38,672 bases of DNA from assembly GCA_945883495.1 (NCBI GenBank), contig CAMCXS010000056.1:1-38672 (forward strand). Reading direction: 5' to 3'. The position numbers were made by a program, and so were the translations under genes. Under the pieces are notes generated by a model. That model had not been told where the DNA came from. It searched no databases and worked only from the letters and a program-made list of their open reading frames with translations. The stretch is from Akkermansia muciniphila (GTDB lineage: Bacteria; Verrucomicrobiota; Verrucomicrobiia; Verrucomicrobiales; DEV007). This document shows positions 24,301 to 38,672 of the stretch, piece after piece (the first letter of the stretch is position 1; each line of letters starts with the position of its first letter).

Positions 24301-24994
24301 CGATAAATCCGGTGACGCGCGTGCCGTAGGAGTCCGACCAATCTTGCGCCAGGCACTCGAACGAGGTGATGAATTCTCGCCCGGCTGGTTTGGCGGGATA
24401 ATTGGCGTTCGACGTGAGCGTGGCGATGCCGGTTCCCGTCAGCCCGGTCCAATGCTCCTTGAGTAGGGCTCCCCCGAGCTTAGTGACCCGCGCTGGGTAA
24501 AGCCGGGCGGTCGGGATGATCTCGCGAGCCCGGAAATCGCAGGCCCATTCCAGCTTCACGGAGGCGGAGCCGGTTTGCTCGATGTATTCGAGGCGAAGAT
24601 TGACCCGCTGACCCGCACGGAGAAGCATCTGGCCGCGCATTTCGGGGCTGGCCCCGGCGTAGGTTCGGCACGTGACCATTTGGTCGTTGATCCAGAGCCG
24701 AGCCCCGTCGTCCGCGGTCAGAAAAAACGTGTAGAGCGCGGTGAACTCTGGCTCGATTTGGCCGCTCCAGGCGATCGAGAAGGTATCGGCATGGGTGATC
24801 GCGGTTCCGGTGGGAATGGCGGTGCCGAAGTTGAAGTTGATCGTGGCGTCGGAGCGCGTGGTCCGCAAGGTGCCGAAGAACTCGGTGTCGTAGTACTGGC
24901 CGGTGAGTCCGGTGCCCTGGGCGAACGAACGCTGCGTGCCGAGCAGCAGAAGAAACAGCAACGGAAGGAGCGCCGGGGGAAAATGAGAAAGCAT
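18302..24994 (-). CDS. Large secreted heparinase II/III-type polysaccharide lyase with PA14, LamG and autotransporter-associated repeats
   Basis: A 2230-residue exported protein. In order: signal peptide (1-26); two PA14-like carbohydrate-binding domains (about 27-165 and 172-320); an alginate-lyase/heparinase alpha-toroid region from HPRIFATSERFARLKAAY (about 350) with NNWNQVCNGG and YEGPGYWGYTMEYG (Tyr near 564); the heparinase II/III beta-sandwich with DHGNLDAGTFVLDALG (His720), to about 900; an Ig/cadherin-like stretch to about 1050; a LamG-like lectin domain (about 1052-1290); PATR repeats such as LILAGNNSYTGATVINAGTL (about 1430-1985); four GYTSAP/GGGGTGATA repeats (about 1780-1900); a DADFDGDGLANLLEFATG motif (about 2130); and an Ig-like end. 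It probably cleaves uronic-acid polysaccharides outside the cell. The substrate is not predictable. There is no C-terminal beta-barrel, so secretion is not classical autotransport. Confidence 0.88.
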   Translation of the reverse strand: MLSHFPPALLPLLFLLLLGTQRSFAQGTGLTGQYYDTEFFGTLRTTRSDATINFNFGTAIPTGTAITHADTFSIAWSGQIEPEFTALYTFFLTADDGARLWINDQMVTCRTYAGASPEMRGQMLLRAGQRVNLRLEYIEQTGSASVKLEWACDFRAREIIPTARLYPARVTKLGGALLKEHWTGLTGTGIATLTSNANYPAKPAGREFITSFECLAQDWSDSYGTRVTGFIVPQETGSYSFALSGADAVELWLSTDATSTNKSLIASVSSATAFRAWGTPSTPRILTQGQRYYVELLHKESTGTDHWSVGWMKSGDSSFSVVPGSALAQPGTTSAQPAQANLLDTMAQEHPRIFATSERFARLKAAYLNPASSQAKTWAQNAINAANAILTQAPVTYAPDVRSVILTESRLVVDRIYKLGVAYWMTDDPQYAERAWTELNTVADNTLFPNWNPNHFLDTAEMTHACAIGYDWFYHYWTQARRDTIRNAIINKGLNPGLTQFTNNAGWTRSTGNNWNQVCNGGLIMGALAVGSESEALTENILNRALNSTRPTWAHFTTDNGAWYEGPGYWGYTMEYGIRMLAALEWVLGSDFGIGTTQNLSEAGFAPMQSVGPTNIIFNYADAPASGPGRGPVFQWMARRYGLPIYDWWENQTSGSALSALWWNESSTSLVSSNQSPDMAYHGEAGTAFQPQEMVTMRGRWNDNRTTFLGCKGGEMAADHGNLDAGTFVLDALGTRWFHDLGGDNYALPNYFIEPSNPSGIDRWDYYRMRPEGQNTLTIDPSANADMNLHAVAPLLAYQSEPGGSGSFAIHDLTPVYTGVTRVWRGARLLGARDEVLIQDEIQAATGKTVWWFAHYSHPSTAVTIDPDGSSALLTKGSERLWCKILSGDGTFQVMDAVPLPTSPNPATNPAQNANTGFKKLAIQLTNVTDTTLAVWFVPLTTGEPLPTTAPAITPLTAWNIAASNDAPVTTGTVATSNGENPVDIDLRNYVTDDATPGSQLRFRVSQPVNGTVVLLADGYTARFTPTPGYSGVPSFTFTATDAGGDNANTVLLWDFDLPDSSTPHTVPDASGNGRDGTIDAAGAGTYTLGTDRPASLASQGARSIDLVENVNDARRIQRTLTATELGWNTANWSVAGWFKRRDTTNDDMIWHIGDGDGFGSTDELYLNCPTGQSTVRLQHFSNSGDALDVDITATGVSVGVWHHFAVVRNGTTISLYLNGVLIGSDSAFAFAMNQAAPLVFGGHATSGFEPRRWCDGVLDDLLVTRAVLDASQVAELASGGTVRHFGGLSTTGTISLSAAAVNYVWTNASTTGGLPWSTGANWQSGTAPSSTRGASVQFFTGQTLTGGTVTSNNDIGGSFQMNNLTLAGTATTATTVTVSGGNFALLNNGTQLPTVNLTGSGSNLLSYQINTPILLGADTTVNATNNGTFIFNGDLSGSGGLTRNSSSSRLILAGNNSYTGATVINAGTLQIGNDGANGTPGSGDILNNGTLRFDRTGTLEVTNNISGSGGVTIDCPINAGTVILSGTNSFNGNVSVVSGALRITNSSALGDGSKTVTLTNGTAGNPQLRLDGTSNPIELPAATGFLISNDTSGAIINEAGDNLIAGPVTLASGGGSSRIYVNAGTLTLTGAISPNTTGRTLKLMGAATGLITGDLSNGNATNVLPVSKEESGTWTLSGNNTFSGTTTVAAGILRIGSPSALGHGGFTFGNGNGGTSITSGATLDLNGQPNVNEVLTLRGPGVLVLTGGLVNDGDAVASIAGGVVSSISTTAGGVHSAVPEVTLSGGGGGSGATAIATLGVSAPSFTINGGTTVYSAAPTVTITGGGGTGATATAVLTSGLVTGISITNAGTGYTSAPDIAFSGGTVTTAGTNPTGTGNASNFVVSGIQVTQSGSGYTSAPSVSFSSGSGTAATANLSAVSLASSTFIGGTGDLVIHPGITGGNVGLTKTGFNTLRLNGSNTYTGSTMINSGRLILAGSLAGAVQTGIGAIFAPQGTPSVAGPIIHSGRPVLQLRLSDTTPGSGHDQLIAAGTVTLAGTLDLICGPDLAPGSTFLILNKTSSGAIAGTFDARPQNSTFTDDGYTFQISYTGGNGNDVVLTRLPNAMEQWRFTHFGSYFSTGNGADDADFDGDGLANLLEFATGLNPTTAGTLPQTTTRNGSVLEFVYPKNKAATGLTYTVEWSDTLTNDWSSADVSAPVVLSDNGSLQQIKVTVPAGPGARFIRLTVSRP

Positions 24995-25276: not shown

Positions 25277-26029
25277 TCAACCTGATTGTCGCAATTCAAA
25301 TTCCGAGCGTTGGTTTGCTTTGCGGGCGAGGCGGCGTTCGATGAGTAGTCCAATGGCCGGACCGAGGCTAAGCAAGAGGATCGCCCAACCGGTTGCCATG
25401 CCCCAAAATGTGAGGATGGGAGCGCAGCAATCTTCCCGGCGGCGGCAGAGAATGTGACACGGCACGGCGATGAGAAGCTCCAGCACGCTTCCCGTGAGAA
25501 TCCAGGTGACGAAGCGGGCCGCCAAGCTTTCTGGAGCCGCGTTCCGCGCCACCGGCCCGAGCACGATCCACCAACCCGCCCACAAGCCGCCGATGAACCC
25601 AAAGAAAAGCGTCGGTGGAAGCCACCCGTCGGCGTTTGCGCCTGGGAAGGTTCTGTCGATCGCCTTCGCGGTCCACTGCATGCCGCCAAATGCATCATCT
25701 CCCATCGTGGCCATGGAGAGGCTGATCACCAAAGATGAGGTCAAGAGGCCCAAGCAACACGCGGCGGCGACGATTGCAGGCCAGACTCTGCGGCGCGCTT
25801 TGGGGCGTTCCCCGCTAGGCCGAACGCGGATCAACAGAACGCCCTGCGCCAGCGCGAGCAGCATGAACCAAGTGAGAAAAAGGGGCTGTCGCCACAAATA
25901 GGGAGTTTGTCCGTCCGGCCGTGGCGGCAGCGCCCATTGCTGTAAGGGCGCCAAACTCATCGCCAAGATGAGCCAGAACACGATCATCACGGGAATCGAC
26001 CAACGTCTCACGAATGCGGATTCTATCAC
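25277..26029 (-). CDS. Small multi-pass membrane protein, third gene of the export-like unit
   Basis: A 250-residue protein with about five hydrophobic segments (about 11-27, 47-66, 83-105, 140-162, 170-190 and 210-227 by eye, some uncertain). Between the last two is a Cys cluster, CHILCRRREDCCAP, with four cysteines in 14 residues, and the C-terminus is basic (RRLARKANQR). I do not recognise a family. It follows the M50-HlyD gene by 33 bp on the same strand, so it is probably co-transcribed. Possible roles are an accessory membrane subunit of the putative exporter, or a metal or redox-sensitive anchor; both are inference. Confidence 0.7.
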   Translation of the reverse strand: MIESAFVRRWSIPVMIVFWLILAMSLAPLQQWALPPRPDGQTPYLWRQPLFLTWFMLLALAQGVLLIRVRPSGERPKARRRVWPAIVAAACCLGLLTSSLVISLSMATMGDDAFGGMQWTAKAIDRTFPGANADGWLPPTLFFGFIGGLWAGWWIVLGPVARNAAPESLAARFVTWILTGSVLELLIAVPCHILCRRREDCCAPILTFWGMATGWAILLLSLGPAIGLLIERRLARKANQRSEFELRQSG

Positions 26030-26062
26030 CTCCAGGCGGCGGCCGTTACGAAAAGCGGTGCG

Positions 26063-28273
26063 TCAGCTCGAAGCTTGCGCTTGATCCAGCCAATCCGCCA
26101 GAAATTCGCCAATTCGTTCCGCCAAGACCCGGCGCTTCCCAGTGGCAAGCGTGACGCGGCCGCGCTCGCCGTCGATGAAAGCAACGGCGTTGGCATGCAA
26201 TGAGGCTCGCACTTCGATTCGTGGTGTCACCAATTCGTGATCGCCTATCCCGTGCTCCTCGCCCTCGCCGATCCGGCGTACCGCGAGGGGACCTCGGAAC
26301 GGAGCCATCAAAGCAAAGTGGCCAGGATGAAGCGTCGCGCCCGGGGCAACTCGGGCGATCTCGAGCGGATGGGAGCCAGCCCGGGCGGAGGATTCGAACC
26401 GGGCGGGGTTCTGAGTGGCGAGGGCGTCGCGGAATGAATCGGCATCGCGCGGCTCCGCCAAGATCAAGACTTCGCGTTTCCGCGGCGCTGCGATTTCGAG
26501 GAGGAGATGGCCGCTCGGCACCCAAGAGCCTTGCAAGTCTGCCAGGTTATCAGCGATCACAATTCCGTCTCGCGGGGCGCGCAGGGTGAGCGTTTCCACG
26601 TGAGTGCGCAACTCCTTGAGCCGTTGCTCCAGGGCGTCGAGGTGCTCACATTCGGCGCGGTAGGCTCCGGTGTTGCTTGTGGCGAGGAAAGCATCCCGCC
26701 GCATCCGGCTGCGAGCGGTGTCGATCTCCGCTTGCCGGAGTTTGGCGGTCTCCTCAACGTTGTGCAAAACGATCAAGGCGGCTCCTGCTTGAACGGATTG
26801 GCCGGGGTTCACCATGGCTTCAGCGAGGAATCCTGGGCAACTGGCCCGCACTTCGCCACCGCTCGTGGAGCGGATGACGGCCGGCGCGGAAATCTGGGAC
26901 TCCCAACCGGCAAGAAAAAGGACCGCAGCCATGCTGGCGGCGAGGGCGGTGAGGCGGCCAATCACTTTCCAAGGTGAAGAACCGTGGGCTCGGGAAGAGG
27001 AGATGAGTCCCAGCAGTCCGCCGCCTTGGTTGACCAATTGTGCTCCTCCGGCGAGGAGCGCCAAAGCCAAGCCGGCGCCGTGGAACAGCTGGGCGGCAGT
27101 GACGAGGAGGCCGGCCGATACGACAATGCGCCAGACGGCGGACGCCAAACCGTAGGCGGTGATGAGCCATCGGTTTTCGCCAGGCCAGAGCGGAGAGGAG
27201 GCGTCGCGGAAGCCGAGAACCCAGCGCTGCAGCAACCAGCTAACTATTTGCTGACCACGGGTGGCGAGATTGGGTTGACCTACGAGATCGGAGAACACGT
27301 AGTAGCCATCGAACCGCATCAGTGGATTCGCATTAAACAGCAACGTGGTCACCCCGGAGATGAGAATGACTTGGTGCAGAATGGCGCTGAGCATCGAGCC
27401 TGAGGAGAGTTGTCCCCAGGTGAGCGCGGCAAGGGCCGCCAGGAAAGCCTCCCCGTAAATTCCGGCGGCGGCCACTTGGATGCGCGACCATCGGGACGGA
27501 AACCGAAGGCTGGACGATGCATTTACATAACCCAGTGGCGTGACCAGCAAAAGGAAGGCGACTCCAATTTCTGGCACCTCGCCTCCGTGCCGCCGACAGA
27601 AGAGTCCGTGCCACATTTCGTGCCAGGCTTTGAGCAGGAGTGCGGCTGGGATGAGCGGCCAGAGATTGCCCACTTGGAACACGCCGGAGGTTTCCTCGGA
27701 AAAGCGGGCCCACTGGCTGGCCAGCGTCCAGGCCCCCGCGCCCACCAGAACGACCCAGAGCAGAAAAAACCATCGTCCCGTGAGCCAAGCCACGTGACGG
27801 GCCAGCCAAGCAAAAAAGGCGTCTGGATTTCCCAGCGGGATGCGCAAGCAGAGCAGATTTCCTGCTTTTCCAAGAAGCCGCGTGGCATCCGCCCGCTTGG
27901 CTTGGTCCCGGTCTACCCGGGCCGCGTGGCCCGCGTTCGCCGCTTCGATCAGTCCGGCGTCCGCCAGGGAGCGAAATAGGGAGACGGCTTCGCTCTCATG
28001 GAAGGAGCCGGATTGGCCCTGAGCGGAGGTCGGATCCGCAAAGCTGGACACGATCTCGCCCAGCGTGCGGGAGCCGTCTAGCGCGCGGGCGAAGCGGTAT
28101 TCGCGTTCCCCCAAACGGAAGAAGCGTCCGTGAAGGGGATCCTCCGCCAGAAAAGCCAGAGTTGGGCCGCTGTCCGGACGGAAACGGAGGTCGGTGCGCA
28201 ACCGGGGGCGGGCGGATTCCATTTCCCGGACGGCGAAGTCCGGGGATTGCAACGAGGATGGCGGCATGTTCAT
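26063..28273 (-). CDS. M50 site-2-type metalloprotease fused to HlyD-like adaptor domain
   Basis: A 736-residue membrane protein. An N-terminal soluble domain (about 25-115) has a PqqD-like cadence. The membrane part (about 160-450) carries HEMWHG (His218, Glu219, His222) inside a helix and NPLMRFDGYYVFSDL (Asp322), the HExxH and LDG-type motifs of M50 intramembrane zinc proteases; all metal-binding residues are present. After the last helix (about 440) comes a HlyD-like region (about 455-736): a lipoyl-like half (GFLAEAMVNPGQSVQAGAALIVL), a coiled-coil hairpin (LRQAEIDTARSRMRR to HLDALEQRLKELRTHVE), the second lipoyl half (LTLRAPRDGIVIADN) and a beta-barrel. M50-HlyD fusions of this plan occur beside peptide- or protein-export genes. 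It starts 3 bp after the stop of the GAF-HlyD gene; the start may be either of two Met codons at 28273 or 28267. Confidence 0.88.
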   Translation of the reverse strand: MNMPPSSLQSPDFAVREMESARPRLRTDLRFRPDSGPTLAFLAEDPLHGRFFRLGEREYRFARALDGSRTLGEIVSSFADPTSAQGQSGSFHESEAVSLFRSLADAGLIEAANAGHAARVDRDQAKRADATRLLGKAGNLLCLRIPLGNPDAFFAWLARHVAWLTGRWFFLLWVVLVGAGAWTLASQWARFSEETSGVFQVGNLWPLIPAALLLKAWHEMWHGLFCRRHGGEVPEIGVAFLLLVTPLGYVNASSSLRFPSRWSRIQVAAAGIYGEAFLAALAALTWGQLSSGSMLSAILHQVILISGVTTLLFNANPLMRFDGYYVFSDLVGQPNLATRGQQIVSWLLQRWVLGFRDASSPLWPGENRWLITAYGLASAVWRIVVSAGLLVTAAQLFHGAGLALALLAGGAQLVNQGGGLLGLISSSRAHGSSPWKVIGRLTALAASMAAVLFLAGWESQISAPAVIRSTSGGEVRASCPGFLAEAMVNPGQSVQAGAALIVLHNVEETAKLRQAEIDTARSRMRRDAFLATSNTGAYRAECEHLDALEQRLKELRTHVETLTLRAPRDGIVIADNLADLQGSWVPSGHLLLEIAAPRKREVLILAEPRDADSFRDALATQNPARFESSARAGSHPLEIARVAPGATLHPGHFALMAPFRGPLAVRRIGEGEEHGIGDHELVTPRIEVRASLHANAVAFIDGERGRVTLATGKRRVLAERIGEFLADWLDQAQASS

Positions 28274-28276
28274 GGC

Positions 28277-30196
28277 TTACCAAGTGGCTTGGCGAATCGC
28301 CATCCACGGAGACCGCAACCATCTCCAGATCAGCGGACGCTGAGGCCCTTGGAGCCGTGCTTTGCCTTTCAGTCCGGGGCGGAGAACGCCCTCCGGATTC
28401 GGGAGTTCCGTTTCGGAAAGAATCACATTCTGGCCCTCTCGGGCTTCCGAGCGCGGGGCGATGCGGCTCACCCGTCCGTGAAAGGTTTCCCCGGGGAAGC
28501 TTTCCAGTGAGATTTCGACGGGGGCTCCTTCGCGCAGCAGAGCCACATCGGTCGGAGCGGCGCTCAGTTGCACAAGCAAATGGTCGAGCGGGCCGATCTC
28601 GAACAGGGCATCCCCCAGCCGCAAGGGCGCGCCTTCCGAACGCTCCAGATCGCCCCGGAGGACAATGCCGTCGATGGGGGCTTTCACGGCCAAGTGATTG
28701 TTCCGGTACGTTAGGACGGCGATCTCCTGCGCCAGGGATTCCGCTTCCAATTCCGCCATGCGCGCCTCGGCGATCTTGCCGGCGGCCAGGGTCAGGTCGG
28801 CTTCGGCCAGGGCTTTGGCCCGCTGCGCCACGGCGTCGGCCAGCTTCCAGCGGATTTCGCGCCCGTCCAACTCGGCGAGCAATTGCCCTGCTTTGACGGT
28901 CTCTCCGGTTTTGACCAGAGAGCGTTCCAGGATGCCGTCGAATGGAGCGGCCACCACGCGGCGCACGACTGGTTCGAGTTCGCACGTGGTTGCCACTGGC
29001 AAAGGGGCTGGCGCCACCATGATCAGCGCGGCAATCCCGGCGGCGACGCTAGCGAAGCGCCTCTGGTTGGCGGTGGCGCGTCGCCAAACGCGGATCACCG
29101 TGCCGCGGGTCGGTCCCGGCTTGGCGGCGCGCAGGAGGGGGAGGAAGGCCGCGACTTCTGGTCCGGCAGCGTTGATGAGGGCTTCGATCCGGTTGGCGTC
29201 TGGCAGCGGCTGCTTCCAGAGGAAAATCCAACCACCGCGCTGGGTGCCGTCCGGTTCTTCCAGAGGTGCGATAAGTCCGTGGGCCGGACCGAACCACTCC
29301 CGCAGGCTTTGGATGGTCACGTCTTCGTCCACCCCGCTCTCGGGGGCGGGGCCAAGGACGCGGGGCTGGCTTTGGCGCATCACTCCGTCGATGCTGGCCT
29401 GGAGAACGGCGCGTCCGGCGGTTTGGCCTTCGGCGTTCGGGTTCCAGCCGGAAACGGAAACTAAGCGAGTCTGCCCCCGCCTCCGCACGGCCAAGGCGAC
29501 CAAGTCACAGCCAAAGGTGTCCCGCAGATGATTGGCCAGATCACGGGTGCACTCTAGGAAATCGCTGCCCTTTGAAGCGGCGGCGAACAGCTCCGTCAGC
29601 GCGGCCGCGCGCCGGAAGAGCGAGCGCTCTTGAGCGGCCTCGAGGCGCACGGTCTGGAGGGTGGCCAGTTGGGCGGCGATGGGAAGCAGCAGGCTGGCGG
29701 ATATCCGGGGGCTCTGGGACTGCATGGAGGCTTGGCAGATCGCTCCAAGAATCTGTCCGCGGCTGATCACCGGGTAGGCCAGAGCGGTGGCTGGCTGCCG
29801 GAACAAAGGAAACCCTACGGTCGCCTGGGTGCCGGTCTTGGCGGCGAGGAGCGCCGCTTGCAGCGCGGCTCTTTCCATGGATTCCACCATGTCCCCCAGG
29901 AGCTTCCGGCCGTCGTCCTCGGCGGTGGAGCTGTCCTCAATGACCGGTTCCCCAGCGGAGCCCGGCGCGCCGGGAGCCTGAAAGCGAACGTGGAACCATC
30001 CCATGCCGCCAAACTGTTGGCGGAACGTCCGCAGGACCGTGGCCACGAGGGTTTCCGGTGGGCATGCGGCTAGATTCGCCAGTAACCGCGCGGAAATGAT
30101 GGTGCCGTCTGGTGCCCCGGGGGCTTGGAGGCCAGCATCGTTGGGATCAAGTCGGAGCGGGAGCGGAGAAGGCACGGCGGGTATGAATTTAAGCAT
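28277..30196 (-). CDS. GAF-domain protein fused to HlyD-type membrane fusion adaptor
   Basis: A 639-residue protein. The first about 360 residues are cytosolic: a region at 45-180 that resembles a degenerate GAF domain (ATVGFPLFRQPATALAYPVISRGQILGAICQ) and a second GAF-like unit at about 195-355 (FGCDLVALAVRRRGQTRLVSVSGW). One transmembrane helix follows (RFASVAAGIAALIMVAPAPL, about 380-399), then a periplasmic HlyD-like adaptor (about 405-639) with lipoyl halves APFDGILERSLVKTGETVKAG and VKAPIDGIVLRGDLERSEGAP around a helical hairpin (460-500), and a beta-barrel. A sensor domain on an exporter adaptor is unusual. It is the first gene of the leftward unit and is divergent from the giant repeat gene. 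The ATG at 30196 has no visible Shine-Dalgarno sequence. Confidence 0.87.
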   Translation of the reverse strand: MLKFIPAVPSPLPLRLDPNDAGLQAPGAPDGTIISARLLANLAACPPETLVATVLRTFRQQFGGMGWFHVRFQAPGAPGSAGEPVIEDSSTAEDDGRKLLGDMVESMERAALQAALLAAKTGTQATVGFPLFRQPATALAYPVISRGQILGAICQASMQSQSPRISASLLLPIAAQLATLQTVRLEAAQERSLFRRAAALTELFAAASKGSDFLECTRDLANHLRDTFGCDLVALAVRRRGQTRLVSVSGWNPNAEGQTAGRAVLQASIDGVMRQSQPRVLGPAPESGVDEDVTIQSLREWFGPAHGLIAPLEEPDGTQRGGWIFLWKQPLPDANRIEALINAAGPEVAAFLPLLRAAKPGPTRGTVIRVWRRATANQRRFASVAAGIAALIMVAPAPLPVATTCELEPVVRRVVAAPFDGILERSLVKTGETVKAGQLLAELDGREIRWKLADAVAQRAKALAEADLTLAAGKIAEARMAELEAESLAQEIAVLTYRNNHLAVKAPIDGIVLRGDLERSEGAPLRLGDALFEIGPLDHLLVQLSAAPTDVALLREGAPVEISLESFPGETFHGRVSRIAPRSEAREGQNVILSETELPNPEGVLRPGLKGKARLQGPQRPLIWRWLRSPWMAIRQATW

Positions 30197-30300
30197 TAAG
30201 TATAATTATGCAAATGATTAAGAAGATTTGATAATTTAGGCAATTTAGTAATTGAAATAGCCGTAATTATGCGAAAAACTATGCGCTCATACCTCAGCTC
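30197..30300. promoter_or_regulatory. AT-rich divergent promoter region of the exporter unit and giant gene
   Basis: This 104-bp gap is only about 30 per cent GC, in strong contrast to its surroundings. It contains a perfect TATAAT (30201-30206, plus strand), TTGAAA (30252-30257), and the nonamer TAATTATGC twice in direct orientation (30203-30211 and 30264-30272, 61 bp or close to six helical turns apart). Both divergent genes must be transcribed from here. I cannot choose the promoter pair by eye; the spaced repeats look like operator sites for a shared regulator or sites for an AT-binding nucleoid protein. Confidence 0.6.
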
Positions 30301-33300
30301 ATGAATGATTCCGCAGCTCCTTCCCCTGCTCGCAAAGCTCCCGTGGCCTTCGAGGCCCTAGAGGCGAGAGTTCTCTTCGATGGCTCTCCAGATGCTCCGG
30401 TTGCCGATGTTCAGGTCTCCGTGGTCGAGGAGGAGTTTATCAATGAGGATGTGACCTTTGCCGTCACTTTCGACAACACTGGGGCCACGGAGGGATATGC
30501 GCCTTACGTCGATTTCATCGCTCCAGCGGCTTTAGAGATCGGAAGTGCGACCACCTTTGGCGCCAGCGCGACCAATCCTTCCGGCAGCGCGGTGATTCCC
30601 ATCGGCCGGATCGCGGCGGATGGCCAGTTGGTGGATATCACCACGGGCGTGCCGGTGGATCATCCAATGTATGCCGGCGCCAGCGATGGCGGAACCTATG
30701 GCCGAGCTGGATCCGGGACGGCTCCAGTTCTCTACGACGTCGCGGGAAATCCAAATCTCGTGGGCATGCATGTCTATTCGGCGCAATTGCCATTTGGGAG
30801 CTACACACCCGGCAATCCCGCGGCCACGGTCTATTTCACGGGCAGTCTGGATAAGGACAACGGCATCCTTCCTCATCAGGAGGTAGTGACGTATGCAGTC
30901 GGCGGCTTCGCCTATGGAGCGGACGCGCTGCACAATCCCGTGTCCGATGTGCCGGTCGCCTCGAACATGACGTCGGCCGGGGTGATGCCGTTGGTGATCG
31001 ATCTCGTGAAAACGGCAGTGGTCCCGGAAGAGGACGGGATTTACACCGGGGAAAACGTATCAGGCCCGAACCATCCCATCACCTACCGGTTGACCGTGAA
31101 CCTGGCGGAGGGGGAAGAAGTGACGAACTTGGTGATCCGTGATCTGCTTCCCGATGATCTGGCCTACACGGGCAACCTCGCCGTGACCTTTGGAAGCGGC
31201 ACGAGTGGCTCCCGGAGTTATGTGGTCCAAGCGGAACCGGAGTTAAACACGGACGGGCTCACCGCAGTAGATCCGGCGGATGATGAGCTGCGGATCGTGG
31301 TCGATCGGATTATTGGTCAAGGCGGAGGTGATATCGTCGTGACCTACACCACGTTTGTGCCTTACCGGGAAGTGTCCGGTGCCTTGGTGGTTGAAGCCGT
31401 GAGCGGTGAAGAAGGAGATCTCGATGCGGACGAATATAACGATGCCTCCGTCACCGCTACCTATGATGCAGATGGCGCGGGCTTGGCTTTGCCTTATTTG
31501 ATTGGAGATCATGAAGGTCCGATGCAGCCGGGCACGGCGTATCGTTCCTTCAATTCGGACACAGACTACCGTATTGAAGAGCATTCGATCGCGATTCAGA
31601 AGGGAGTGGACTTCGCTCCCGGAGGAGATCGCGCTGCCACCGGGGTTTCTCAGGGAGATGTCTTGGAGTACCGGATGAACTTCCAAATCTCCGACTATTT
31701 CGCTTTTGACCAAGTGGTGATTGACGACTTGCTCGGCGATGGACAGGAGTTCCTTCCCGGTGACGGCCGGATTGGGTTTAACGTGGATGCGTTGGAGAGC
31801 TTGCCGCAGCTGACCTTCACCATGCATGGGACTGCGGTTACGCTCGCCTTCGACTCTGCGAATTTCGAGGCGGTGGAGAATGCCAATGGGACAACTTCGA
31901 TCCGCTTCAACGTCTATCAACAATTGGTCGATTCCGGGTTCATTGCCGCCGGAGCACCGCTGCTAGGAGGTTTAGTGGAGACCACTGGAACCGCCCCAAC
32001 CGCGCTGAGTCCAGGGAACTTCAACGGCGGGCCGACCACTGGCACGGTGACCTTCCGGGCCAAAGTCCGGGATGCCTACGAGAGCGACTTCATCACCGAT
32101 CCCCGGATCAACCAAGGGGATGTCCTGCGCAACACCGTTTCGATCACCGGCCGCAACCTGGATATTGAGACTTTTGCGCCATTGACCGATGTCACCGACG
32201 GCAGTGCCGCATCGGTGACCGTCCCCGTCGGCCGGGTGACAAAGGAGCTGCATTCCGTGACTCACTCGGGAACCATCATTCCCGCGACTGGATTGACTGA
32301 GGGGCGTCAGGTGGTGCCTGGAGACGTGGTGACTTGGCGATTGACCTATGTCTTGCCCATCTCGGAGTTCGAGGCATTGACGGTAACGGATTTCCTGCCG
32401 ATGCCAGTCTTCGACGTGAGCCAAGTGGATACCACGCAAGTTTATGCCTGGAATCCCGCGACGTACAACGTCGCTGGCCGCATCAGTTTTGGACCGGGTG
32501 ACACCTTTTTCGGGGCGAGTGGAGCGAGCGCGACCGGAGATGGGGGGCTTGATGATACATTCGGCTATCTCACGCCAGCCACGCCGACGATCACTCTGGA
32601 TCCGGCCTACAACAGTTTCACGATTCATTTCGGCGATTACATTATTCCGGCTACCGTTGATCCCGTCGCCACCACAATCGAGATCTATGTATCGACGGTG
32701 ATCCAGGATGGTCTGTATGCGGATGGACTGCTCTTCACCAACCAAGTTGAGGTCCGGGAGCAGAACTCCAATGTCGTCTCCGTCGCGTCGAATCAGATCG
32801 CGCAGATTGATATCACGGTTCCCGATCTCCAAATCACCAAAGGCGTCGTAGCCGCGTCATCGCCGAATAGCGGTAGCTTCACTGCGATCACCGGACCGGC
32901 GGGAGTCACGTTCAACGCACCCGGAAGCGCGTCCGCTTTCTCGGGCACGGTGAATTCAGATGGCTTGGCCACGCGCCGAATCGATGCCGATCTCAACAAT
33001 TTGGATGCTGGAGATATCGTTACGTTTGCGATCTCCTTGGAAAACTTTGGTGACGGGGCGTTTGGTGCGTATGACGTACGGATTAGCGATACGCTTCCCG
33101 CTGGATTCGTGACTCCGGGGGCCCCTGGAGCGGTGCCGCTGAACCTGCGGGTCACCGATGGCACGGGCGCTGCCTTAGCCTACACGATCTTGGGAGGTGG
33201 AACGGACGCGGATTTTTTCCTCAGCGGTTTGGAGCTGACGGACCCGTCGTCGACTCAAGGCAGCATTGGCAGGTTTGACGCATCCAGTGGCGGGAACGTG

Positions 33301-36300
33301 GTGATCATCGCCTATGATCTGGTTCTCGCGGACGCGGTGGAGGCAGCATCGGCCCAGACCAATACCGCTGCGTTGGAGAACTATTCTTACCGCGAAGGCG
33401 GAGATGATTACTCTACCGCCGCGGACCGCGACACCGCGACCGTAAATGTGCTGCAGCCCAGCATCACGAAGACGGTCGTGGATACAAGCCACGACGATAC
33501 AGGGAACGTGGATCTCGCGGGCGGAGGTGGTGCTGATCAGGTGGCGGTGGGCGAAGTGGTGACCTATGAGGTGACGGTGACCGTGCCGGAGGGACAGCTG
33601 ACGAACTTGCGGCTCCGGGACACGTTGCAGTCCGGTTTGGCGTTCTTGGCTCTCGACAGTGTGACCGCATCATCGGGGCTCAGTTCGGCGTTAGGTGCCT
33701 GGAGTTCCGTGGTCGGCATTGTCAGCGGCGGGACGGCGGGCAGCGCGAATCAGGGGACCGTGCTCGAACTAGGCTTCGGAACCACACCTGGGCTTGGAAA
33801 TGTGACGAACTCCAACCGGGATAACACCGTCACGGAGACAATCACCATTCGCTATCGGGCAGTCGTCACCAACGTTAACACCAATGACCGGGGGGACGTT
33901 CTGGACAACACGGCCACAGTCACCTGGCAAGTGGGAGGCACGGACCAGACTCGTTCCGCAGGCGATTCGGTGACCGTCGTCGAACCGCGGATTACCTTGG
34001 CGAAGGACGCATCCGTGACATCGGTGGAAGGAGATGATTTGGTCACCTACACGATTGTAGTCAGAAACCTCAATCAGACGAATGTTTCCGAAGCCTACGA
34101 CCTGGTACTGGAGGATTTGTTGCCAAATGGCGTTTCTTATGTTGGAGGGCTGACTCACGTGGCGGGTGTAGCGCCGAATGCAGGCAGTCTTCTCTTCGAT
34201 CCGTCCGCCGGAACGGATGGGGCGGTCCGGGCGGTGTTCGACCGGCTAGCGCGTGGGCAGTCCAGCACGTTGAGTTTTCAGGTGCGCGTCGATAATGGGC
34301 TGAACATCGGCACCGTGGTGCGAAACACCGCCACGGTAACCTTTACCAGTCTGCCGGGGACGCCTTCCTCCAGCACGCCACACAACGCCTTTGGCGCCGA
34401 GCGAACCGGTGATTCTACCGGAATTGGCGGCACCGCCAATGACTACCGGGTCAGCGACCCGGCTGAATTCACCATCGTCAGTCCTGTGTCGTTGTCCAAG
34501 GTGGTCGTCGATACCTCGGAAGATCACACGAGCGCTGATGCCACGTCCTCCGGAACCGTGCGCGCGGCCATCGGCGAGGTGGTGCGCTTTGCGGTCACAT
34601 TTGAAGTTCCCCAGGCGAACAATCCCTCGGTTCAGTTGGTGGATACCTTGGATTCGCGCCTCGTTTGGCTCGACCCAGCCAATGTTCAGATTCGCTTCGA
34701 TGGGTTTGACTCCAGCGGGAGCACGCTTGGGGTGGGGGGAGATCTCGTTGGAGCCAATGGGACAACCATCACTTTGGACTCGTCCCGAATCTCCTTCGAT
34801 TCGGCCAACAACCGGGTCACATTCAATCTGGGCGACATTCTCAATACAGAATTAGATACCTCCGCCGCCGAAACCGTCACCATCCTTTATAACGCGGTGA
34901 TTCGTAACGCCGCTCCGGTGGACCGGGGGGATGTTTTGGTGAATAGCGCGCAGTTGCGGGCCAACGGTGCCAACCTCGGCAGCCCGTTGACAACGTCTGT
35001 GACCGTAGTGGAACCGGTGCTCACGGTTACGAAGACGGATAACGGAGTCAATACAGCCGATGCTGGCGATCTTATTAATTACCGCCTTCTGGTCAACGCA
35101 TCCAACGCGACGAATACCGCAGCAGCGTTTGATTTGGTGCTCTCCGACTCGGTCCCAGATGGCCTGGAGATCGTGACCGGATCCCTTGCGTTCAGTGGCC
35201 TTCCCGCCTATGTCAGCGGCTCCAGCGTGGGCTTTACGGGGCAAAATATCACGGCGACCGTCAACGAACTTCGCCCAGGCGATTCGTTTGAAGTTCTCTT
35301 CCAAGTGCGCGTCCGGGACAGCGGACCGCATCTCCTCCAAGCCGGGGAGCGAATTCAGAACACGGCCCAGTTGACATTCTCATCGCTCCCAGACGATGGC
35401 ACGGACAACGGTGTGTCCGGGAATGCGACGGGCAGCGAGTCTGGTGCACCTGGAAGTGCCAGTGGAGAGCGGAGCTACAACGCTTCCGGAAGCGACTCCT
35501 TTGATGCTCCCGTTCCGGTATTCCGCAAGGTGCTGGGAGATCCATCTGACACCACATACACCATCGGTGAAACGGTGGAATACGTTATGACGGTGACGAT
35601 ACCGGAAGGACGCACTGGGGGGCCGGAGGCGTATATCTTCGATACCGTGGATGCCGGATTCAGCTTTGTGTCTGGATCCTTGACGGTGACGGTCGGCGCC
35701 GGCATCACCGTCGGCACGACGGGGGCACTCGATGAAGCCAATAGCAGCTTCTTCACTCGCTTGGATGGAGGTGCGAACGCCACCGAGAGCCTCCGCTTTG
35801 ACTTTGGCCATCTGGATCTCAACAACGGCTCCGCCGGGAGTGGGCTGGCGTCTCAGACGGTGGAGATCCGATACCGGCTTTCCGTAGATAACATACTGGC
35901 CAACCAAGCGGCCCAGACGCGCAACAACGTTGCGGACTTTTACTACACGGATGACGATGGCTCGACGCGCAACTTGGCGAGTGATGCCAGTGGCGATACG
36001 GACACCCGCGTCACGATCGTGGAACCCGTCGTTGCGGTCGGCAAGCAGATTGCCAGCATTGCGGCTTACCCAGACGCCGGGGATACGGTGCAGTACGAAC
36101 TCGTCATCCAGCACACGGGAACGGCGCATCCGAATAATGTCACGGCTTATGACGTTACGGTCCGGGATGTACTGCCGGCCAATCTCACCTTGGAGACCGC
36201 TTCCTTCACGGCAACGTTGAACGGAACGACGAATGTCAGTTCCTGGTTCACGGTGACTGCCACTGGGCTTGAGGCGATCCCGGGCGCGATCGATCTGAGT

Positions 36301-38672
36301 CCTGGCGACCGAATCGTCATTACGTATGGAGCTACGATTTCCACGGCGGTGCGGGACGGAGACACATTCCTCAATGAAGTAGACATCGAGTGGTCCACTT
36401 TGGATGGCACGGTGGTTGGGGAACGAAGTGGGGATGGCGATCTCGACAATCCAGTGTCGCCCTCAAACCCGAACGATTACGAGGCTGCGGCAACCGCGTC
36501 ATTTGTCGCCGATCTCACCCCCATCTACGGGGTGACCAAAGAGGTGATTGCCACTTCCGCCGCCCATACAGGCAGCGCCAACGGTGCCAGTGCCACGCTT
36601 ACGGATCTGACCATCGGGGAGACTGTCACCTATCGCGTTACGGCAACGATTGGCCGAGGCACCACGGAGAACGTCCGGCTGGTGGATGCGTTGAGCATCA
36701 GCAACGGCCGTTTGCACATTTATAGTGTCAGCTACTCGGCTGGTGCTGCGTTGCGCCTCGCCAGTGGGGATCCGATCAATGGGATCGTTCCGGTGCTTAC
36801 TGATGCCGCCGCTGCGGATGGCTATACGGACAGAGTCGAGTTGGATTTCGGCACAATCATCAATGATCCGGCTTTGTATACCACGGCGCAAGACGAGCAA
36901 ATCGTCCTGATCATTGAGGCGGTGGTGGTCAATGACTCCGCGAATCAGCAGGGAGACGTTATCCGGAATACCGGGACTCTGTACTTCAATGACGAGACCG
37001 GAGCGCGAAGCCTGAATGGGTTTGTGGATGTCGAGATTGTGGAACCCGAGTTGGGAGTCGTGAAGACGGTGACAAATGCGCCGGGTACGCCGGAGGCAGG
37101 CGACATCATCTCGTACCAGATCGAAGTTCGAAATAACGGCACAGCAAATGCGTTTGAGGCAACTCTCTCGGATGTGGTGCCCGCGGGGATGGATCTTCTT
37201 CCGGCCAGCTTCTCGGCGGTCCGGGTCAGTGATTCCCTCGACGTGACCTCTTGGTTCACCGTGACCGCGGCCGGGATCACCGCCACGAGTGCCTTTGACC
37301 TCGCCGCGGGAGACAGTCTGCGGTTGACCTACGACACACAGCTATTGACTCAGGTGACCGATGGTGCGCGGCTGACGAATGAAAGTGATGTTTCGTGGAC
37401 TTCGCTGACAGGGAGCGATGCGGGTGAGCGGACCGGAAGCGGCGCAGGGCCCAACGACTATTTGGCCGGGGATGACGCCACCGTCGTCGTGGACTTGGAG
37501 CCAATCATCACCAAAACCGTGCAGACAAGCAGCGCCGCCCATACCGGCAGTGGTCAAGGGAACGTTGCGCTCACGGACCTAGTGGTTGGAGAGTCGGTGA
37601 CCTATGAGCTAGTGGCTCAGCTGGGGCGGGGGACCACCCATGGAGTGGTCATTGAAGACATTCTGGATTTGTCCCAAGGCATCCTCAATATCCGCGCTGT
37701 CCGCGTGGAGAACGGAGCGGCTTTGACGGTTTCCAGCCCTGTTATCACCTACACGGATAGCAATTTGGATGGCTTCATGGATCAGGTGCGGCTCGACTTC
37801 GGCACCGTGGTCAATGAATACTCGCTCTCCACAGGGGCGGGAGACGAGCAGATTCGTGTCTATATTGAGGCGGAAGTGCGCAATGTGCTCGCGAATCAGG
37901 CAGGTGACACCATCAATAATACGGGGCGCCTGATCGTGCTCGAAGATACCAACGGCGATGGCGTGGCCGCCGAGTCCGTCACTCGCTCTAGCACAGTGAG
38001 CGTTGAAATCGTCGAACCAGCTGTGACTGCGGCCAAGACCGTCACGTCCGCTCCGGCGCACCCAGACGCTGGTGATTCCGTTAGCTATGAGGTCGTTCTG
38101 CAGAATACCGGGTCCGCCACGGCATTCGATATCACGTTTCGAGATGTCGCGCCAAACGGCCTGGTATTGTTGCCGAGCACATTTACCGCGACGCTGAATG
38201 GCTCCACGGACGTAAGTAGCTGGTTCACTCCGACGCCGGGTGGCATCACTGCTTCGACCGCTTTCCAGCTGGCGATCAATGACCGGGTGGTGATCACCTA
38301 CGATGCTACTCTTCAAACAACGGTGCGAGACGGTCAACGTCTCGTCAACGCCGTGGCCGTGGAGTGGACTTCTCTCGACAGTACGGATCCTTCCGATGGC
38401 TCTAATGTTGGCGACACTCTCGAACGAGGTGGCGACGGGGATCTCGGCACGACCTCCGGCCCGTCGAACCCGAACGATTACGAAGCGGCGGCTCAGGCCA
38501 CGGTGACGGCCAATCTCACACCTCTGTATGCGTTCACGAAGTCGATTCAGTCGACTTCGGAAGGGCATACCTCGGGCTCGCAGTTGGTGGTGGGCGAGAC
38601 GGTGACCTATGAACTGGTGGCGCAGATCGGTCGCGGGACCACGCATGGGGTGGTGATTGAGGACCTATTGGC
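30301..38672 (+). CDS. Giant LEPR-like, DUF11-repeat surface/secreted protein, 3' end beyond window
   Basis: The frame starting at ATG 30301 stays open to the window edge: at least 2790 codons with no stop. The N-terminus has no signal peptide but has FEALEARVLFDGSPD (residues 17-31), a variant of the LEPR-XLL motif that begins many giant secreted proteins (LExRxLxD, with Ala22 in place of Pro). After about 220 residues come repeated Ig-like beta-sandwich domains of the DUF11/fimbrial-isopeptide D2 type: each starts with a TKTV-like strand, has a GD-x-V-x-Y or GE-x-V-T-Y strand, a D-x-LP-x-G loop, and ends in an N-T-A-x-V-like strand. From 33982 they form a super-repeat of about 1 kb. The protein is rich in Thr, Ser, Asp, Gly and Val and poor in Cys. 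It is most likely a very long surface adhesin or sheath protein exported by the divergent HlyD/M50 unit. ATG 30301 lacks a clear Shine-Dalgarno sequence. Confidence 0.88.
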   Translation, partial: MNDSAAPSPARKAPVAFEALEARVLFDGSPDAPVADVQVSVVEEEFINEDVTFAVTFDNTGATEGYAPYVDFIAPAALEIGSATTFGASATNPSGSAVIPIGRIAADGQLVDITTGVPVDHPMYAGASDGGTYGRAGSGTAPVLYDVAGNPNLVGMHVYSAQLPFGSYTPGNPAATVYFTGSLDKDNGILPHQEVVTYAVGGFAYGADALHNPVSDVPVASNMTSAGVMPLVIDLVKTAVVPEEDGIYTGENVSGPNHPITYRLTVNLAEGEEVTNLVIRDLLPDDLAYTGNLAVTFGSGTSGSRSYVVQAEPELNTDGLTAVDPADDELRIVVDRIIGQGGGDIVVTYTTFVPYREVSGALVVEAVSGEEGDLDADEYNDASVTATYDADGAGLALPYLIGDHEGPMQPGTAYRSFNSDTDYRIEEHSIAIQKGVDFAPGGDRAATGVSQGDVLEYRMNFQISDYFAFDQVVIDDLLGDGQEFLPGDGRIGFNVDALESLPQLTFTMHGTAVTLAFDSANFEAVENANGTTSIRFNVYQQLVDSGFIAAGAPLLGGLVETTGTAPTALSPGNFNGGPTTGTVTFRAKVRDAYESDFITDPRINQGDVLRNTVSITGRNLDIETFAPLTDVTDGSAASVTVPVGRVTKELHSVTHSGTIIPATGLTEGRQVVPGDVVTWRLTYVLPISEFEALTVTDFLPMPVFDVSQVDTTQVYAWNPATYNVAGRISFGPGDTFFGASGASATGDGGLDDTFGYLTPATPTITLDPAYNSFTIHFGDYIIPATVDPVATTIEIYVSTVIQDGLYADGLLFTNQVEVREQNSNVVSVASNQIAQIDITVPDLQITKGVVAASSPNSGSFTAITGPAGVTFNAPGSASAFSGTVNSDGLATRRIDADLNNLDAGDIVTFAISLENFGDGAFGAYDVRISDTLPAGFVTPGAPGAVPLNLRVTDGTGAALAYTILGGGTDADFFLSGLELTDPSSTQGSIGRFDASSGGNVVIIAYDLVLADAVEAASAQTNTAALENYSYREGGDDYSTAADRDTATVNVLQPSITKTVVDTSHDDTGNVDLAGGGGADQVAVGEVVTYEVTVTVPEGQLTNLRLRDTLQSGLAFLALDSVTASSGLSSALGAWSSVVGIVSGGTAGSANQGTVLELGFGTTPGLGNVTNSNRDNTVTETITIRYRAVVTNVNTNDRGDVLDNTATVTWQVGGTDQTRSAGDSVTVVEPRITLAKDASVTSVEGDDLVTYTIVVRNLNQTNVSEAYDLVLEDLLPNGVSYVGGLTHVAGVAPNAGSLLFDPSAGTDGAVRAVFDRLARGQSSTLSFQVRVDNGLNIGTVVRNTATVTFTSLPGTPSSSTPHNAFGAERTGDSTGIGGTANDYRVSDPAEFTIVSPVSLSKVVVDTSEDHTSADATSSGTVRAAIGEVVRFAVTFEVPQANNPSVQLVDTLDSRLVWLDPANVQIRFDGFDSSGSTLGVGGDLVGANGTTITLDSSRISFDSANNRVTFNLGDILNTELDTSAAETVTILYNAVIRNAAPVDRGDVLVNSAQLRANGANLGSPLTTSVTVVEPVLTVTKTDNGVNTADAGDLINYRLLVNASNATNTAAAFDLVLSDSVPDGLEIVTGSLAFSGLPAYVSGSSVGFTGQNITATVNELRPGDSFEVLFQVRVRDSGPHLLQAGERIQNTAQLTFSSLPDDGTDNGVSGNATGSESGAPGSASGERSYNASGSDSFDAPVPVFRKVLGDPSDTTYTIGETVEYVMTVTIPEGRTGGPEAYIFDTVDAGFSFVSGSLTVTVGAGITVGTTGALDEANSSFFTRLDGGANATESLRFDFGHLDLNNGSAGSGLASQTVEIRYRLSVDNILANQAAQTRNNVADFYYTDDDGSTRNLASDASGDTDTRVTIVEPVVAVGKQIASIAAYPDAGDTVQYELVIQHTGTAHPNNVTAYDVTVRDVLPANLTLETASFTATLNGTTNVSSWFTVTATGLEAIPGAIDLSPGDRIVITYGATISTAVRDGDTFLNEVDIEWSTLDGTVVGERSGDGDLDNPVSPSNPNDYEAAATASFVADLTPIYGVTKEVIATSAAHTGSANGASATLTDLTIGETVTYRVTATIGRGTTENVRLVDALSISNGRLHIYSVSYSAGAALRLASGDPINGIVPVLTDAAAADGYTDRVELDFGTIINDPALYTTAQDEQIVLIIEAVVVNDSANQQGDVIRNTGTLYFNDETGARSLNGFVDVEIVEPELGVVKTVTNAPGTPEAGDIISYQIEVRNNGTANAFEATLSDVVPAGMDLLPASFSAVRVSDSLDVTSWFTVTAAGITATSAFDLAAGDSLRLTYDTQLLTQVTDGARLTNESDVSWTSLTGSDAGERTGSGAGPNDYLAGDDATVVVDLEPIITKTVQTSSAAHTGSGQGNVALTDLVVGESVTYELVAQLGRGTTHGVVIEDILDLSQGILNIRAVRVENGAALTVSSPVITYTDSNLDGFMDQVRLDFGTVVNEYSLSTGAGDEQIRVYIEAEVRNVLANQAGDTINNTGRLIVLEDTNGDGVAAESVTRSSTVSVEIVEPAVTAAKTVTSAPAHPDAGDSVSYEVVLQNTGSATAFDITFRDVAPNGLVLLPSTFTATLNGSTDVSSWFTPTPGGITASTAFQLAINDRVVITYDATLQTTVRDGQRLVNAVAVEWTSLDSTDPSDGSNVGDTLERGGDGDLGTTSGPSNPNDYEAAAQATVTANLTPLYAFTKSIQSTSEGHTSGSQLVVGETVTYELVAQIGRGTTHGVVIEDLL
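33982..38672 (+). repeat. Composite ~1-kb protein super-repeat in the giant gene
   Basis: Units begin at a (V/I)VEP motif: 33982, 35011, 36022, 37042 and 38014, giving lengths of 1029, 1011, 1020 and 972 bp (343, 337, 340 and 324 residues) and a fifth unit cut by the window end. Each unit holds two Ig-like domains of different type: one beginning like VTKTxxxxxDAGD and one like ITKTVxxTSxxHTGS followed by VGETVTYELVAQ-GRGTT. A longer, less regular forerunner spans about 32821-33981. The last units are most alike at protein level (GRGTTHGVVIED occurs in both 37.6 and 38.6 kb), pointing to recent duplication. Confidence 0.88.

Follow-up and report, generated by a model that had tools for sequence, protein, structure and literature searches.

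The window, by which we mean the whole stretch of DNA analysed, is the entire 38,672-bp contig C56 of genome G000 (6.46 Mb in 206 contigs). Three leftward genes, for a GAF-HlyD adaptor, an RRE-M50-HlyD protein (M50-HlyD below) and a small multi-TM protein with a Cys cluster, lie divergent from a giant repeat gene, and all four were found at exactly the coordinates that the first-pass annotation of this DNA had reported (Table 1). Since the window is one whole contig, the assembly breaks off inside the giant gene, and little can be read from the absence of TolC here. The stretch separating GAF-HlyD from the giant is presumed from its sequence to be a shared regulatory region. As claimed before, the window shows neither an exporter ABC ATPase nor TolC; a scan of 10 other ORFs there gave a single ABC ATPase, which is SufC-like and adjoins two SufB/D-type genes.

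Table 1. Features of the window, of contig C99 of the same genome, and of DnaJ genes at related loci
Feature	Location	Strand	Remarks
Small multi-TM protein, Cys cluster	25277..26029	-	250 aa, GTG start
RRE-M50-HlyD	26063..28273	-	736 aa; 3 bp from GAF-HlyD
Periplasmic adaptor part of M50-HlyD (predicted)	about 26099-26911	-	
Site-2 protease core of M50-HlyD (predicted)	about 27095-27679	-	
Second active-site motif NANPLMRFD (N314 to D322)	27308..27334	-	alignment of 48 homologues
HExxH zinc site (H218, E219, H222)	27608..27622	-	invariant in 48/48 aligned homologues
PqqD/RRE-like domain of M50-HlyD (predicted)	about 27932-28216	-	
GAF-HlyD	28277..30196	-	639 aa; ORF call
MacA-type periplasmic adaptor of GAF-HlyD (predicted)	about 28307-29011	-	
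One transmembrane helix of GAF-HlyD (predicted)	about 29015-29071	-	
Tandem GAF of GAF-HlyD (predicted)	about 29117-30130	-	
Divergent intergenic region GAF-HlyD/giant	30197..30300	.	104 bp; from sequence alone
Giant DUF11/isopeptide-domain repeat protein	30301..38672	+	first 2790 aa, open at contig end
LEPR-XLL leader core of giant, VAFEALEARVLFDGS	30343..30387	+	residues 15-29
Probable C-terminal part of giant	G000:C99:1-3654		1217 aa, DUF11 repeat
OEP	C99:3879-5636		PF02321 above cut-off
SecA-like ATPase	C99:5633-7621		
Short HlyD	C99:7623-8438		
DnaJ/DnaJ_C gene	L043:7487-8476		
DnaJ/DnaJ_C gene	L044:11971-12975		
DnaJ/DnaJ_C gene	L045:11933-12925		

The Cys-cluster protein had been counted as a core part, a status that the comparison of loci does not support: it is present in 2 of 13 window-type loci (the window and the twelve nearest M50-HlyD relatives, E < 1e-140, with flanks), both from one genus, and its sole match among all loci read is in G181, of that genus (64%). 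No family scored over cut-off for it in the domain scan. As far as its sequence tells, it is a conserved gene and a genus-level accessory.

M50-HlyD is, on its AlphaFold2 model (mean pLDDT 86.2) and profile matches, a three-part fusion of a leader-binding PqqD/RRE fold, an RseP-like site-2 protease and a MacA-type adaptor. Structure matches were taken from VIA-align, whose lists give single domains, the absence of other folds there carrying no meaning. For residues 20-114 the match is to the N-terminus of TigE (8vpo; Z 10.3, rmsd 2.1, 83 aligned), which we take to be an RRE, and the sequence profile matches the PqqD structures 3g2b (E 3.3e-4) and 5sxy (4.8e-4); profile and model together give the N-terminus a winged-helix PqqD-like fold. 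The site-2 protease (M50) motifs, HExxH and N-x-x-P...D in membrane helices, are both there: N314, N316, P317, L318 and D322 are invariant in 48/48 aligned homologues, as is the K preceding HExxH. The Pfam M50 score of the window protein is 22.9 bits, under the cut-off of 27.2; its model matches RseP with Z 11.0 (7w6y, residues 199-334) and Z 10.5 (7w6x, 200-393). The adaptor part is above the Pfam cut-off (PF13437), and residues 455-725 match MacA/AcrA/MexA with Z up to 16.4, the value for residues 458-712 against MacA 9qgy.

The partner adaptor, GAF-HlyD, is modelled with a mean pLDDT of 90.3 and a tandem-GAF arrangement. In VIA-align it matches MacA with Z 18.1 and the single GAF 3o5y with Z 14.0 (rmsd 3.0); the match to the tandem GAF of PDE5A (Z 14.8) has an rmsd of 13.4, the two domains standing at another angle. 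PF13437/PF16576 are above Pfam cut-off. GAF itself is below it in the window protein (19.7 < 28.6 bits) and above it in a Pontibrevibacter relative (40.7 > 22.4 bits). A DnaJ/DnaJ_C gene (one member scanned) lies divergent beside GAF-HlyD in three genomes (Table 1).

The 2790 aa of the giant in the window are built of DUF11 and isopeptide-forming repeats, according to domain scans. Its N-terminus had been called LEPR-like and free of a signal peptide, and so it appears: the first 72 residues hold no signal-peptide-like hydrophobic stretch, as judged by Kyte-Doolittle hydropathy alone (highest 13-residue mean, 1.07). The protein reads LEAR where the family has LEPR, and for LEPR-XLL (NF012209; cut-off, 17) it scores 11.5 bits by hmmscan on the whole window giant and 17.3 in the genome search.

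We aligned the leaders of 34 giants, 30 chosen by eye from a listing and four from plasmids. The pattern [LVI]x[FL]ExLEPRxL[LF][SD]A is conserved and its flanks are not: mean pairwise identity is 52% over the 17-column core, 10% over the ten columns before it, and 9% and 8% after it. Because the search pattern fixes columns 0-3, 5 and 6, the free columns carry the conservation test. Here E at -2 occurs in 31/34, F/L at -3 in 26/34, S/D at +7 in 31/34 and A at +8 in 32/34. An unpicked recount, which took all 32 long or open frames with the narrow leader pattern, gave 30/32, 23/32, 28/32 and 28/32 for the same positions and supports the conservation, at the sequence level, of the free columns. 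Conservation stops within about two residues after A at +8; a conserved core that ends so abruptly has the shape that suits recognition plus a cutting site. Near the leader the giants are modestly hydrophobic (best 13-residue mean: median 1.07, highest 1.94), the upper value making a signal peptide possible for some of the other giants.

The same genome has a second LEPR giant (C8:30188-85951; L010, L011), whose open frame spans 18,596 aa and has, in the part scanned, Calx-beta and PATR repeats. It was rejected as an export-cluster locus: the genes that flank it in the two stretches read are PD-DEXK, UvrD-type, sulfatase and ArgC/ArgJ-type genes, with no HlyD pair. Adjoining the window locus (18302-24994, minus strand) is a 2230-aa protein that looks secreted from an N-terminal hydrophobic stretch in its translation; it has a local match to the C8 giant (32% over 208 aa), and no tie between it and the export cluster was seen.

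The first-pass annotation had placed an outer-membrane channel outside the window and looked to the DNA beyond it for TolC or SecA-like genes. Contig C99 of this genome has both, the channel being a TolC-like OEP. The opening 1217 aa of C99 align over their full length (73%) with the final third of the giant of G181, from the same genus, while the window giant aligns with the first 2487 residues of that protein (76%), its last 300 residues matching a repeat there at 51%. The ends of C56 and C99 do not overlap. From order and homology, C99 is very probably the missing half of the window locus.

A LEPR giant directly adjoins the GAF-HlyD/M50-HlyD pair in 8/13 window-type loci, divergent from it in the window and G181 and, in the other six (G187, G138, G075, G002, G152 and G112), 3′ of M50-HlyD on the same strand at roughly 100-220 bp. 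The LEPR start is about 8 kb from the pair in G178, the pair has no adjacent giant in G118, G016 and G158, and it lies at a contig edge in G061. Beyond the giant the gene order is OEP (PF02321), SecA-like ATPase, short HlyD. The giant's 3′ end precedes the OEP in 10 of the 12 window-type loci with an OEP (for L095 inferred from frame length), the exceptions being L043, with no giant 3′ end before the OEP, and L110, which is cut. Among the 21 loci read from this order that hold the SecA-like gene, 17 have the OEP next to it; in the remaining four the OEP is elsewhere in the cluster (L058), not detected (L092, L107) or lost to a contig cut (L108). These genes were called by a codon-score caller that misplaces some starts. 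Genome G000 also has a paralogous pair on its 9.5-kb contig C142, with no giant there; relatives of this type of pair carry SecA-like, short HlyD and OEP.

Co-occurrence was assessed in 189 genomes of the order (thresholds: M50-HlyD, E <= 1e-30; SecA-like, E <= 1e-90, housekeeping SecA scoring near 1e-75 in the latter search). M50-HlyD relatives are in 61 genomes, own genome included, and GAF-HlyD in 51, of which 46 have SecA-like. SecA-like occurs in 47 genomes and LEPR-8K matches over cut-off in 50, with both in 45 and neither in 137 (Fisher p 2.8e-35, in which kinship among genomes is not accounted for). HlyD-bearing genomes without a giant had been named as a test of the earlier proposal, which came through it: 45 of the 47 SecA-like genomes, all of them with M50-HlyD, have LEPR, and the other two are 86% and 75% complete. 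Among the five LEPR-only genomes, three owe their matches to short open frames alone (of 21, 294 and 327 aa), probably by chance, and two are incomplete (83%, 82%) and have GAF-HlyD. Short LEPR frames are also among the 45 (G078, 202 aa; G166, 227 aa), both on the same contig as the SecA-like gene and within 600 bp of it.

Fourteen of the 61 M50-HlyD genomes have no SecA-like gene, and LEPR matches among these are confined to G013 (the 294-aa frame) and G014. LEPR therefore follows SecA-like rather than M50-HlyD as such (Fisher p 4e-9 within M50-HlyD genomes), and the M50-HlyD family has other uses too. Twelve of the 14 are also without GAF-HlyD. A second kind of M50-HlyD was seen in 12 genomes where GAF-HlyD, SecA-like and a convincing LEPR were not found, at one locus beside a short HlyD (L060, G008:C11:120000-139999); it probably represents a different role for this fusion. 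In some genomes LEPR matches far outnumber the SecA-like genes, two of the latter being accompanied by 18 matches in G023, 13 in G158 and 12 in G016. None of the 12 in G016 is beside the pair, and the operon itself has no giant, which fits a portable address tag.

A search of genome contigs with a profile of the M50-HlyD alignment confirmed at least 543 relatives, and the best 80 of these, nearest to one query and so not a random draw, were read as cross-phylum loci. By title and tree label they belong to Pseudomonadota, Desulfobacterota, Myxococcota and Nitrospirota. In these best 80 of at least 543, M50-HlyD was found in 80/80, GAF-HlyD in 77/80 (the three misses start at contig edges), SecA-like near M50-HlyD in 75/80 (three of five misses at contig ends; not found in L138 and L189 despite room), short HlyD in 57/80 and DUF3467 in 29/80. 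For OEP the counts are 8/80, or 11/80 with a looser threshold, from a profile whose narrowness makes it unsuited to counting across phyla. In 35 loci the start of the giant could not be seen; leaving out L130, LEPR was found in 32 of the 34 genomes behind them, the best matches mostly in frames of 4,600 to 13,700 aa.

The same gene set is found on Alphaproteobacteria plasmids of Pontibrevibacter, Mesorhizobium, Alisedimentitalea, Pseudosulfitobacter and Methylosinus (with TolC). The Pontibrevibacter annotation lists a LEPR-XLL giant, DUF3467, an adaptor, a 'PqqD family peptide modification chaperone', a 'DEAD/DEAH box helicase' and an adaptor. Pseudohalocynthiibacter has DUF3467, an adaptor, M50-HlyD and a SecA-like protein of 668 aa that is annotated as hypothetical and was itself part of the SecA-like profile. 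At a Thalassospira plasmid locus (with TolC) SecA-like was neither annotated nor found by profile, and a Rhizobium plasmid has M50-HlyD, a GAF-HlyD truncated where the record begins, and SecA-like in two overlapping frames (L117:3270-5410), perhaps a broken gene or a sequencing slip. Among six plasmid records with a giant beside the cluster, five have the LEPR leader at the giant's start; the sixth, from Alisedimentitalea, has no LEPR at the annotated start, which may be wrong.

We consider it likely, from sequences and models, that these genes encode a dedicated SecA-powered exporter with an adaptor/TolC-type conduit, in which the RRE-protease binds the LEPR leader and probably also cuts it. 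The window is proposed to hold the inner-membrane/periplasmic half of this exporter and its cargo. The giant preprotein would bear the short N-terminal LEPR-XLL leader in place of a Sec signal peptide, and the cytoplasmic PqqD/RRE-like domain of M50-HlyD would, judging from its fold, bind that leader. The truncated SecA-family ATPase, which is present and linked to the other genes, may power movement of the unfolded chain. GAF-HlyD, M50-HlyD and the short HlyD, as their adaptor families suggest, would form a funnel of conjectural stoichiometry onto the OEP/TolC-like channel, the giant's exit; the inner-membrane pore could be either the lone housekeeping SecYEG or the membrane portions of the pair of fused adaptors. 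Since the active site is intact and conservation stops just after the motif, the intramembrane M50 site may cut the leader near LEPRxL(L/F)(S/D)A, freeing the chain. More speculatively, the tandem GAF domains might sense a cytoplasmic ligand and gate assembly. The first-pass annotation had proposed a dedicated export and processing system for the giant, with an adaptor pair of which one member carries a protease. This was largely right, including the pair and the protease-adaptor fusion (M50 motifs intact, RseP-like and MacA-like folds in one protein), and incomplete in three respects: it missed the RRE/PqqD domain that could read the leader, the SecA motor, and the short HlyD, a third adaptor that belongs to the set.

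The nature of the motor bears on another possible route, which we regard with some doubt: the SecA-like protein may use the housekeeping SecYEG to bring the giant into the periplasm, with adaptors and OEP acting later or in surface display only. The SecA-like proteins (about 660 aa) are of the SecA family by sequence, sharing with SecA and SecA2 the NBD1, the preprotein cross-linking domain (PPXD) and NBD2 (PF07517, PF21090 and PF01043 above Pfam cut-off; GEGKT motif) and, with housekeeping SecA, 42% identity over 319 residues. SecY is single-copy in 7/7 genomes searched, which suits passage through SecYEG and also means that no second SecY accompanies the motor there, and in Gram-positives SecA2 exports giant adhesins. 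Unlike SecA, the SecA-like proteins of L043, L091 and L111 have no detectable wing/scaffold domain (SecA_SW, PF07516), and SEC-C (PF02810) was not found in SecA-like proteins by Pfam; the housekeeping SecA of G000 has both. The alignment with solved SecA ends near what we take to be the start of the scaffold helix, and the two-helix finger that touches SecY is presumably in the missing part. The SecA-like proteins scored, three of three, fall under every NCBIfam SecA/SecA2 cut-off (for L091 the best score is 572.7 against a cut-off of 862). In an unrooted tree one branch (100/100) splits 50 SecA-like rows (a hand-made list plus the even-numbered loci, 560 aa or more) from five canonical SecA/SecA2 rows, the very long branch of row L166 making its placement unsure. 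Also against passage through SecYEG are the window giant, without a signal-peptide-like stretch, and the protease-adaptor fusion, which suggests one conduit.

It is rather unlikely that the leader is instead a membrane plug, cut by M50 on a GAF signal to free a surface giant exported beforehand, somewhat as LapG releases LapA. An M50 part with the fold of RseP and an unvarying active site would fit such a release, as would the GAF input domains on GAF-HlyD and the presence, at 17 loci, of a nearby member of a similarity cluster that includes a PAS-GGDEF protein. However, it leaves the RRE domain, the SecA-like motor and the need for an export route unexplained, and the leader is N-terminal, short and weakly hydrophobic.

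As in type I secretion, HlyD/MacA-family adaptors (PF13437/PF16576; MacA fold Z 16-18) and a TolC-family protein (PF02321 on C99; 17/21 loci of the order) are encoded near giant repeat cargo. Unlike type I secretion, the conserved leader of the LEPR giants is N-terminal and the cluster has a SecA-family ATPase, with no frame for an ABC ATPase lying less than 1.5 kb from it in 80/80 loci (the best 80 of at least 543, scanned with a six-sequence home-made profile; five of them have one further out) and none annotated inside it in six plasmid records. Because the energiser in the cluster is a SecA-family motor, the route is not 'type I-like' in the ABC sense, as had been suggested. An ordinary ABC type I system elsewhere in the genome might still export the giants, the cluster merely maturing them or exporting something else, and this we think improbable. 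A MacB-type operon does adjoin the G181 locus, and one published LEPR-XLL protein (PMC10868602) has C-terminal RTX domains that would suit an ABC type I route. Against it, Pfam gave no RTX family for the C-terminus of the C99 giant, and LEPR tracks SecA-like (45/47) and hardly occurs without it. That the neighbourhood is chance or hitch-hiking of unrelated genes is hardly credible: the giant is divergent and not in the same operon in the window's genus, and the pair is kept without an adjacent giant in three genomes (G016, G118, G158), but the same set recurs across phyla, and its genome-wide co-occurrence holds even with the LEPR genes scattered, as in G016.

Returning to the SecA-powered exporter, we lean slightly towards regarding it as a new type of diderm protein secretion, in which a stripped-down SecA motor would drive LEPR-leader giants through an adaptor/TolC conduit. 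RRE receptor, site-2 leader protease and adaptor would be parts of a single polypeptide, which would couple recognition, cutting and export physically, under gating by the tandem GAF of the partner adaptor; its range would span the window's order (Verrucomicrobiota-type), Pseudomonadota, Desulfobacterota, Myxococcota and Nitrospirota. Judged by the anatomy of its genes the cluster looks categorically new, a description elsewhere being possible: in the open-licence literature (without bioRxiv and most subscription journals) we found none of a SecA-like/HlyD/OEP exporter, and no ABC-free route for such giants.

The nearest parallels are partial. PCATs also have leader recognition and leader proteolysis built into the exporter (PMC8277102), with a C39 cysteine protease and an ABC motor where this cluster has RRE, site-2 protease and SecA-like. 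Site-2 proteases of RiPP systems (daptide_HExxH, YydH/LiaK) provide the best NCBIfam match of M50-HlyD (NF041824, E 1.8e-40), which at 139.2 bits is below the cut-off of 300; unlike them, M50-HlyD has a periplasmic adaptor as fusion partner, and its linkage is with giants rather than peptides. Proteins of the LEPR-XLL family (NF012209), whose motif the window giant appears to carry, are the cargo here, and the single mention of that term in each of PMC10868602 and PMC9611531 ties no exporter to it. As energisers, PMC8277102 names ABC, RND and MFS, and PMC13243786 names ABC for type I.

LEPR giants reach open frames of 18,596 aa, and the one in the window has no visible Sec signal. If correct, our reading would name motor, leader, receptor, protease and conduit for giant-protein export, place a SecA-family ATPase in a tripartite TolC-type machine, and assign a role to many database genes (at least 543 M50-HlyD relatives). 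It predicts that LEPR-leader proteins in such a genome are secreted cargo, wherever encoded. Public records label the SecA-like proteins 'prepilin peptidase' or 'DEAD/DEAH box helicase' (H1, H34, H2, H28), which hides the family, and partner genes carry these labels or 'efflux adaptor'.

Clustering of neighbouring genes by similarity found DUF3467, SapC and GGDEF proteins, none of them universal. The small DUF3467 protein lies between giant and GAF-HlyD (L111:17848-18129, L115:17723-18043 and others) and is a possible cargo chaperone. A SapC family gene, presumably named after an S-layer locus, occurs at L114:22245-23066, there between M50-HlyD and SecA-like, and at L179:7213-8055, its similarity cluster covering 17 loci. 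The PAS-GGDEF protein near the cluster, for example at L152:15162-16661, may indicate a link to c-di-GMP.
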